A program made the position numbers and the translations under genes. Shown here in pieces: positions 17,718 to 37,722 of a stretch of 59,540 nt of DNA. Position 1 is the stretch's first letter. Each line of letters opens with the position of its first letter. The notes under the pieces were generated by a model. It worked only from the letters and a program-made list of their open reading frames with translations, made no database searches and was not told the DNA's origin. Origin of the DNA: Deltaproteobacteria bacterium RIFCSPHIGHO2_02_FULL_44_16 (lineage in GTDB: Bacteria > UBA10199 > 2-02-FULL-44-16); contig MGRM01000020.1 of NCBI GenBank assembly GCA_001798185.1, positions 1-59,540 of the forward strand, given 5' to 3'.

Positions 17718-17861
17718 CAAAAGGTGCCTGACATCTTTTTGGCACGGTGTAAGTGCAAAAAAGTGTCTGGCACTGCTTTTGGTCTGCAACGATCGCCAAA
17801 AGAAGTGTCAGGCAGTTTCTTGCATAAACCCCATGCCAGAAATCTGCCAGACACCTTTTGG
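17718..17861. repeat. REP/MITE-like palindromic element (type D, copy 1)
   Basis: A 144-bp element bounded by imperfect inverted ends CAAAAGGTGCCTGACATC and its counterpart CTGCCAGACACCTTTTGG. Internally it repeats the GTGTCWGGCA core in alternating orientation, so it can fold into nested hairpins. A closely similar copy is at 24171-24318. Such GTGTC-GGCA palindromes are often mobilised by REP-associated tyrosine transposases; none is in the window. It lies just upstream of the cyclophilin gene. Confidence 0.8.
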
Positions 17862-17966
17862 CTCTCTTCAAACCGCAGTTGATCAAACCGCAGTTGATAT
17901 TGACGAATGGACGAAAGAAAGGCAAGTAAAGAACCCATTCAACCTTTCCTTAAAAAAGGAGAAAAA

Positions 17967-24170: not shown

Positions 24171-24318
24171 CCAAAAGGTGCCTGACATCTTTTTGGCATG
24201 GTGTGAATGCAAAAAAGTGTCTGGCACTTCTTTTGGTCATGCTCGATATCGCCAAAAGAAGTGTCAGGCAGTTTCTGGCTCAACAACCATCGCCAGAAAT
24301 CTGCCAGACACCTTTTGG
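24171..24318. repeat. REP/MITE-like palindromic element (type D, copy 2)
   Basis: A second, near-identical copy of the 17718-17861 element (148 bp): the same outer ends CCAAAAGGTGCCTGACATC and CTGCCAGACACCTTTTGG and the same internal alternating cores. It occupies the gap between the acyl-CoA dehydrogenase stop and the deoxynucleoside kinase start, directly upstream of the latter, as copy 1 is upstream of the cyclophilin gene. Confidence 0.85.
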
Positions 24319-24331
24319 CTCATATTCTCTC

Positions 24332-36303: not shown

Positions 36304-36365
36304 AGGTGTCGGGCTCTAGCAAGGAAAAAGGCGAAACGCAACTATGTGGCACTCAAAAATCACAC

Positions 36366-36399
36366 TTGATAAACTATTCTTTATAAATTATAGTTTATC
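36366..36399 (+). promoter_or_regulatory. Promoter with perfect inverted-repeat operator for the kinase/HTH operon
   Basis: TTGATA (36366-36371), a 17-bp spacer and TATAGT (36389-36394) form a near-consensus sigma-70 promoter. Overlaid on it is a perfect 10-bp inverted repeat: GATAAACTAT (36368-36377) and ATAGTTTATC (36390-36399), arm starts 22 bp apart. A start site about 7 nt after the -10 box would fall on the ATG at 36401, so the mRNA would be leaderless. The downstream HTH protein is the natural candidate to bind here and autorepress. Confidence 0.7.
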
Positions 36400-36400
36400 T

Positions 36401-37129
36401 ATGGATTTTTTTAAAAACCCCCAAAAGCTGAAACAACTGCTTGAAATGAGTGAAGAGCTACCACTTGCTGTTCAAAACTATCCTTCACGTGGGCAAACAT
36501 CGATCCAGAAACTTTACCAGACAAAATATGGAAAGCTTTTTTTGAAAAAAGTTTCAGATCGTAACCATCAAGAGTGTCGCATCAATGTGAAAAGTGGAAC
36601 TCTCGCTGAGAGAGAGTCCTGGGCCCATCAATTAGCCTCTGCTTTAGGCCTCAATACTCCCCGCATGATGTTATTGGACTCACTCACCACTGTTCAATAT
36701 TGGCTCGACATACCCGATGCTCACCATTTTATTACGGATCAAGGACCTCTTACCTTTGATTCACAAAATGTTTTTGAATGCGCTTGTTTTGACTGGTTAA
36801 CCGGCCAAATTGACCGTCACGATGCCAATTATCTTTATGATTTCGTGCATCAAAAAATCATCCTCATTGATTCGGCACATGCTTTTCTCGAATGGGATGG
36901 GAGCCTACCACATTATTTACAAATTTTTGAGGCTTCATCGCTCGGAGCAGTATCTGAAAAACAGTACGTTCCTTTTTTGGATAAAATTGGCACTGTGATC
37001 AGCAAATTACAGGAACTTGTTCCACTACGATCGATAGCAGAGCAAGATGCCTTGCATCGCCGTGCACATCGGCTTCTCAATATAAAATCCATTTTTGATG
37101 TTATAAAATTTTACAGGAAATCTCTATGA
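36401..37129 (+). CDS. Small HipA/PI3K-like kinase, putative toxin
   Basis: A 242-aa protein with the HipA/PI3-4-kinase-like layout. A short N-terminal loop NYPSRGQTSIQKLYQTKYGK resembles the HipA Gly-rich loop with a Ser-x-Gln-Lys motif; a candidate ATP Lys is in LFLKKV. The Glu helix is LAERESWAHQLASALGLNTP. The catalytic segment is LTGQIDRHDANYLYD and the metal Asp is in IILIDSAHAF. It is much shorter than HipA (about 440 aa) and near HipT-type toxins in size. ATG 36401 directly follows the operator, with no room for a Shine-Dalgarno. It overlaps the HTH gene by ATGA. Target unknown. Confidence 0.75.
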   Translation: MDFFKNPQKLKQLLEMSEELPLAVQNYPSRGQTSIQKLYQTKYGKLFLKKVSDRNHQECRINVKSGTLAERESWAHQLASALGLNTPRMMLLDSLTTVQYWLDIPDAHHFITDQGPLTFDSQNVFECACFDWLTGQIDRHDANYLYDFVHQKIILIDSAHAFLEWDGSLPHYLQIFEASSLGAVSEKQYVPFLDKIGTVISKLQELVPLRSIAEQDALHRRAHRLLNIKSIFDVIKFYRKSL

Positions 37130-37722
37130 CACCCTTTCAAAAAACACCGTTCAAAATATCTTTTCCGTCTGATAAAGAACGGCTCAATCTCTTTATGAAT
37201 ACTGTACAACTCTGCATCCAAACACCAATTGACGACTGGAAAATGCAAGACCCCAACACTCTTCTGCTTTTTTTTCGCACAGCTCCAAAAAGAGACAAAG
37301 GGTTAGATTTCGTCACCAAACTTGTTGACGGAACGTGGAATGAAAAAAGAAATATACTTACCTTCAATAATTTCAAGAACATTTCCTGGGCGCAACTGAT
37401 GAACTTTCTCATGCTCTCACGTCTTAACGAAGAAAACATGAAAGCACTCGCAAAAATGGATGCTCAATATCGACCTTTTGTTCGCAAATTATTTGGTGGG
37501 GAAGAAAGGAATACTGACGAACCATTGGAAACTCCAGAGCAAGTTTCCCGTTTTATTTTTTCCTGTGTTGAAAAACAGAATATGACGCTTCGAAAGCTTG
37601 CTGATAAATCAGATCTTTCCCAAGTCTCTCTCAGCAAATTTAAAACTGGAAACGATATTCGCCTGTCAAGTCTCCTTCGCATCTTAAAAGCATTAGGATT
37701 GAAAATAACGATTGAAAAATAA
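37126..37722 (+). CDS. XRE-type HTH protein with extra N-terminal domain, putative antitoxin
   Basis: A 198-aa protein. Residues about 1-115 form an unrecognised domain (LDFVTKLVDGTWNEKRNILTF, SWAQLMNFLMLSRLNEENM). Residues about 140-198 are a Cro/C1-type HTH: MTLRKLADKSDLSQVSLSKFKTG forms the two core helices and RLSSLLRILKALGLKITIEK is the HipB-like closing helix and strand. It is translationally coupled to the kinase gene and probably both neutralises it and represses the operon. The order (toxin first, antitoxin second) and the N-terminal domain differ from hipBA and from the three-gene hipBST. Confidence 0.78.
   Translation: MTPFQKTPFKISFPSDKERLNLFMNTVQLCIQTPIDDWKMQDPNTLLLFFRTAPKRDKGLDFVTKLVDGTWNEKRNILTFNNFKNISWAQLMNFLMLSRLNEENMKALAKMDAQYRPFVRKLFGGEERNTDEPLETPEQVSRFIFSCVEKQNMTLRKLADKSDLSQVSLSKFKTGNDIRLSSLLRILKALGLKITIEK

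Follow-up and report, generated by a model that had tools for sequence, protein, structure and literature searches.

Ten organisations are recognized in the published classification of Hip kinases (Gerdes et al., 2021; PMC8262856). Gene orders in which the kinase comes first are known among them (hipEB, some hipAB clades, hipIN, hipJS and hipMP), as is an antitoxin, HipR, that combines an HTH with another domain, and tRNA synthetases provide a precedent for the targets, GltX being that of HipA and TrpS that of HipT (PMC8262856). At the locus described here, a putative kinase of less than 250 aa is followed by a protein in which an N-terminal domain is fused to an HTH, a layout that is absent from the ten Hip organisations (PMC8262856); nor was a description of the module found in other open-access literature, judged by titles and abstracts. 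A sequence-only reading of the window (the whole 59,540-nt stretch of DNA analysed) had proposed a two-gene kinase/HTH module unlike known hip modules, and both this layout and the toxin–antitoxin (TA)-like evolution set out below bear the proposal out.

The module is carried on contig C20 of a 1.98-Mb genome. Its two ORFs, which had been read as joined by ATGA, do overlap through that sequence and encode proteins of 242 and 198 aa. The features of the locus are as follows.

36366..36398, forward strand: promoter and operator, TTGATA - 17 nt - TATAGT overlapping two palindromes; proposed site for the partner HTH
36401..37129, forward strand: kinase gene, proposed toxin; 242 aa, putative minimal HipA-superfamily kinase
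36485..36508, forward strand: S29-R-G-Q-T-x-x-Q36, putative nucleotide-binding loop; S29, R30, G31, Q32 and Q36 invariant in 13 copies
36812..36829, forward strand: putative catalytic loop DRHDAN (D138-N143); D138, R139, H140, A142 and N143 invariant in 13 copies
36869..36871, forward strand: D157 of ILIDS, putative metal-binding Asp; invariant, with a role suggested by kinase alignments
37115..37118, forward strand: AGGA, partner ribosome-binding site within the 3' end of the kinase gene
37126..37722, forward strand: partner gene, proposed antitoxin and autorepressor; 198 aa
37174..37494, forward strand: partner N-terminal domain of no known family, proposed kinase-binding part
37570..37710, forward strand: HipB-type Cro/C1 HTH of the partner, from profile and fold matches

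Translation from an ATG further upstream, at 36344, would extend the kinase to 261 aa; this start was rejected because the operator and promoter fall between 36344 and 36401 and most other copies also start directly 3' of the same operator.

A survey of genomes for the same two-gene order had been suggested as a check on the sequence-only reading. A four-row kinase profile detected a full-length kinase gene in 13 of 46 genomes of the phylum and a fragment in one other, each genome having a single copy, a patchy distribution in which 14 of the 46 carry the module. All 13 intact copies have the partner (179–199 aa) directly 3' of the kinase, the kinase always being first, and chance co-occurrence of the two genes was therefore rejected. 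The partner start ranges from 23 nt inside the kinase gene to 2 nt past its end, ATGA being the commonest arrangement. Searches with a partner profile placed full-length partners at exactly 14 loci, namely the 13 pairs and the locus of the kinase fragment; no full-length partner was found away from a kinase or kinase remnant, and no intact kinase among the 13 in these genomes lacks a partner. There is no third gene common to the 13 loci. No additional match came from the genomes of 385 relatives, which span 346 genera and include, besides the 46 genomes of the phylum, others that presumably lie outside it, and kinase and partner searches of phage, plasmid and viral-contig collections yielded nothing but one weak, HTH-only plasmid match. 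In pairwise comparison the kinases are on average 54% identical and the partners 35%; within the partner the N-terminal domain (~31%) is less conserved than the HTH part (~42%). The stronger conservation of the kinase is also compatible with a housekeeping-like substrate. In one genome (G045:C48; L025, 1658-4669) a canonical hipB-hipA operon immediately precedes the module in the same orientation, so that hipBA and the present candidate form two different kinase TA modules in tandem.

The copies have in common not only their gene order but also a 33-bp upstream motif, TTGATAAA-s-TATAs-TTTAT-n-AA-s-TATAs-TTTAT, which consists of two 16-bp palindromes, ATAAAsTATAsTTTAT, lying over a −35 box (TTGATA), a 17-nt spacer and a −10 box (TATnnT). 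In the window these imperfect palindromes occupy 36369-36384 and 36383-36398 and are spaced 14 bp apart. The motif is found 5' of the kinase in each of the 12 intact copies for which upstream DNA is available (the contig of the 13th stops 4 nt upstream) and also in the decayed copy of G020. When the 46 genomes were scanned for the operator with up to three mismatches, 11 intact copies, the decayed copies of G020 and G033 and a single stray place were matched, compared with two matches in a reversed control. Presence of the operator at the module loci is not independent evidence, because the pattern was derived from the same loci; its near-absence elsewhere is the independent part. A promoter scan of the window selects the same −35 and −10 hexamers, although in AT-rich DNA such a scan, taken alone, does not exceed chance level. 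The operator palindromes are duplicated in one copy (L024, G015:C85, upstream of 4639), where the array is about twice the usual length.

The ATG of the window kinase follows the −10 box by 6 nt, and in most copies the distance is about 6–9 nt. Transcription would thus be expected to start at the ATG or very close to it, which makes a leaderless kinase mRNA probable, and only one copy has a ribosome-binding site before the kinase. Most partners, on the other hand, are preceded by a purine-rich ribosome-binding site inside the 3' end of the kinase gene. At 37108-37129 of the window, the bases encoding the kinase's invariant C-terminal Tyr-Arg also form the partner ribosome-binding site; conservation of this Tyr-Arg may therefore partly reflect the gene overlap.

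The genomic setting of the copies differs from one to the next. Apart from generic histidine kinases and, in two genomes, a transporter-like ORF, the flanks of the copies have no gene in common. The neighbours of the window module are a histidine-kinase gene on one side and a gene of the TolC family on the other; in seven relatives these two genes adjoin each other with no module in between, and the gaps examined there contain no ORF of at least 50 aa. In G001, a genome of the same family as that of the window, the module is located elsewhere. Distances between kinases correlate with those between partners (Mantel r=0.50, P=0.0004) and not with those between RpoB sequences (Mantel r=0.10, P=0.21), and the pair therefore appears to move as a unit. 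The kinases of G000 and G044, two genomes from different families, are 67% identical; between G043 and G044 the identity is 82% in RpoB and only 47% in the kinase. By these comparisons the module is horizontally mobile and lineage-restricted, occupying unrelated chromosomal sites within one group of uncultured bacteria.

Three decayed copies were also found, and the kinase is lost in all of them. That of G020 keeps about the first 55 kinase codons, with the last ~20 codons, including the ATGA, out of frame beside an intact partner; in G033 the operator remains, together with a small piece of the partner start, and in G003 a partner fragment with no kinase. Such asymmetry would be the pattern expected of a toxin and its antitoxin, albeit from three copies only, in two of which the partner is damaged as well. 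Short elements adjoin two of the decayed copies, in the operator region of L116 (G033:C106) and 3' of the partner in L031 (G020:C46). They carry CACCTCTAAAAACC...GTCATTGCGAG/GTCATCCTGA, have inverted ends in G033 (MITE-like) and may have caused the decay; the motif was not found in the window. Elsewhere in the window, two copies of an interspersed repeat of ~150 bp with internal inverted repeats (17718-17864 and 24172-24321) are 86–100% identical across matching blocks; one lies 5' of a peptidyl-prolyl isomerase gene and the other near a nucleoside-kinase-like gene, and two ORF calls begin within them.

The first protein had been described as a kinase of HipA/PI3K-like layout, and what stands of this is a weak but recurring sequence similarity together with an invariant set of catalytic residues. 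Family searches matched HipA_C in 12 of the 13 members, Fam20C in 11, TIGR03843 in 10, PI3_PI4_kinase in five and HipA_2 in four, with every match below the curated cut-off and no library family reached; the window kinase, for instance, scored 16.1 bits against HipA_C (gathering score 30.5) and 15 bits against TIGR03843 (cut-off 172). HipA_2 (PF20613) was considered as the kinase family and rejected, as none of the 46 genomes contains a match above the cut-off and the module kinases are not among the matches. HipA_C proteins occur in 24 of the 46 genomes, and the family search matched none in the genome of the window. Profile alignment by hhalign related the kinase to three of four groups of HipA-like proteins from the same phylum (P 4e-5 to 2e-3, best probability 70%; 0.25–0.37 for a reversed-profile control) and not to the fourth (E 0.34), the alignments being colinear across the AERE helix and the DRHDAN loop. 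The catalytic loop aligns with DRH/DAH..N of HipA homologues, and with DRH of Fam20 kinases. Fam20A, Fam20C and Fam20B were among the PDB chains matched by the kinase (E 0.01–0.15), and a PDB search with the single kinase sequence gave chance matches only. S29-R-G-Q32, Q36, K49, E72, D138, N143 and D157 are invariant in the 13 kinases. The segments LTGQIDRHDANYLYD (residues 133–147) and IILIDSAHAF (153–162), pointed out earlier, are both present and largely invariant in the homologues. The Ser-x-Gln-Lys loop reported with them exists in the window copy as S34-I-Q-K37, but 11 of the 13 copies have Ala at position 34, and the conserved element is instead S29-R-G-Q32 with Q36. Structure prediction covered three rows (window, L003 and L004); because the AlphaFold model reached a pLDDT of only 42, the case for a kinase fold rests on sequence, and on this footing the kinase is only remotely related to HipA.

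The partner is easier to place. Its C-terminal Cro/C1 HTH was recognized correctly by the sequence-only reading (HTH_3, E=3.4e-7, above the cut-off, residues 149–195), and the assignment of this domain to the HipB type is well supported by sequence profile and predicted fold: the eight best PDB profile matches are all HipB, headed by E. coli HipB (E=1.5e-5), and HipB also provides the best fold matches for the partner model (pLDDT 72). The NCBIfam HipB model matches nine of the 14 partners (best 1.2e-7), although the window copy scores 19 against a cut-off of 79 bits. The N-terminal domain, predicted to run helix-strand-strand-helix-strand-strand and three helices, deserved the description unrecognised, matching nothing in the family libraries and corresponding to no assignable fold. 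The MqsA_antitoxin profile matched one of the 14 partners, weakly (0.01). A PADLOC match to JetA (0.0021) was judged to be chance since it involved one member only. The suggestion that HipS and HipB are fused in this protein is supported for the HTH but not for the N-terminal domain, which shows no sequence-profile similarity to HipA N-subdomain-1, the homologue of HipS (hhalign E 0.16), though it may resemble it in structure; 'HipS fused to HipB' is therefore at most a functional analogy. The profile searches that had been proposed thus gave HipB for the HTH, HipA_C below its cut-off for the kinase, and no HipS.

We consider it probable that this is a type II-like TA module, in which a minimal HipA-superfamily kinase toxin is paired with an MqsA-like two-domain antitoxin and autorepressor. 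Under this hypothesis the first gene would encode a 242-aa Ser/Thr kinase toxin of the HipA superfamily without HipA N-subdomain-1, whose substrate would be some essential protein of the host. In the partner, the N-terminal domain would bind and inhibit the kinase, and the C-terminal HipB-type HTH would bind the twin palindrome over the promoter and repress the operon; leaderless translation of the kinase, together with translational coupling of a partner that has its own ribosome-binding site, may favour antitoxin over toxin. Comparison of the copies indicates an obligatory pairing, a common operator, movement as a unit and loss of the kinase in decayed copies, while kinase activity, toxicity, neutralisation and DNA binding are what we infer. 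A mobile and patchy distribution, and a putative toxin kept nowhere among these genomes without its partner, are traits of type II TA systems. Pairing and a conserved palindromic operator are observed as well, and through this operator the partner would autoregulate a co-transcribed pair. We are evenly divided over a bolder version, namely that the kinase represents a new toxin family, of smaller size than the catalogued Hip kinases and intermediate in sequence between HipA, Fam20 and the PI3/PI4 kinases, and that it is inhibited by a new domain which binds the kinase and is fused to a HipB HTH. Were this true, neutralisation and repression would reside in one downstream protein, as opposed to HipB plus HipS.

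The same features lend themselves to other interpretations. A role in phage defence by abortive infection, with the N-terminal domain of the partner sensing a phage product and freeing the kinase, would be compatible with a TA module, and such a role has been proposed for hipRF and hipRG with their Stl-like repressors (Gerdes et al., PMC8262856). The patchy, mobile, single-copy occurrence in each genome would suit it, as would an N-terminal domain far more variable than the kinase and the adjacency of a hipBA operon in G045, but PADLOC families went unmatched save for the isolated JetA hit, no defence genes were noticed next to the window copy, flanking genes are not shared, and the module is absent from the phage, plasmid and viral collections; we hold a defence role to be possible yet rather unlikely. 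Less likely again is a non-toxic regulatory pair, in which phosphorylation of the HTH partner, or of some metabolic protein, by the kinase would control binding of the partner to the promoter. An operator overlapping the promoter, an HTH of repressor type and a strongly conserved kinase would all be expected of such a pair; mobility, empty sites and loss of the kinase beside an intact partner, however, better fit a selfish or toxic module, and a single stray operator outside the module loci in 46 genomes makes no wider regulon evident.

It might also be argued, from profile matches that all fall below cut-off and from the poor AlphaFold model, that the first protein is not a kinase at all but a degenerate or different enzyme with a few residues in common. 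We regard this as very improbable, since four families of protein-kinase-like fold are the main recurring weak matches, colinear over the catalytic loop and metal Asp, and all expected catalytic residues are invariant in the 13 copies.

For the preferred reading, a mobile kinase TA module, the interest lies in a gene organisation and an apparently inhibitory domain that are missing from the published classification of Hip kinases; that classification was seeded with HipA, HipT and YjjJ and is not expected to reach so divergent a kinase. A length of 242 aa is about the minimum for the kinase fold, and within the superfamily the DRH loop is reminiscent of the Fam20/PI3K side; the structure and target of this kinase would therefore bear on the origin of HipA-type toxins. 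The 13 intact pairs, from one phylum and with a common operator, offer a ready test set.

How, then, does the module compare with its nearest relatives? Weak similarity to TIGR03843 (SCO1664) and to the Fam20C/PI3-PI4 kinase-like families, extending to 10–11 of the 13 kinases, is accompanied in the case of Fam20 by a DRH catalytic loop and D..F metal motif; to our knowledge, none of these families are TA toxins. With HipBA and hipEB the module shares a HipA-superfamily kinase, a HipB-type HTH partner and a palindromic operator, hipEB and some hipAB operons also being kinase-first. However, its kinase has 242 residues compared with about 440, lacks N-subdomain-1 and falls below the HipA_C cut-off, and HipB consists of one HTH domain (roughly 70–110 residues), whereas the module partner has 179–199 and an extra N-terminal domain. 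HipBST resembles it in having a short core kinase without N-subdomain-1 and a HipB-type HTH in the operon, but the module consists of two genes and not hipB-hipS-hipT, the kinase comes first and is shorter than HipT (291–346 aa), and no HipS-like sequence was found. Because the layout is unlisted and the kinase fails HipA_C, we have filed the module under neither HipBA nor HipBST, although it probably works like them.

Clade XI (hipRG, hipRF, hipIN, hipJS and hipMP) likewise comprises two-gene operons with short kinases (HipG, HipI, HipJ and HipM, 279–321 aa), and in hipIN, hipJS and hipMP the antitoxin is downstream. The module kinase is even shorter and much more divergent, and the downstream partners in that clade are HipS, HipS-HIRAN or resolvase-like proteins, all without an HTH. 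HipR does join an HTH to a second domain, but it is Stl-like, and the names hipRG and hipRF put HipR first. A parallel in plan is MqsRA, where the toxin gene also comes first and the antitoxin has an N-terminal toxin-binding domain and a C-terminal HTH that binds a palindrome in the promoter (PMC2791442, PMC4894380). The toxin MqsR, however, is RelE-like and not a kinase, and MqsA is a protein of 131 aa with a zinc-binding N-terminal domain; domain order and gene order are nevertheless the same, with a putative Hip-type kinase in the place of the toxin (PMC2791442).
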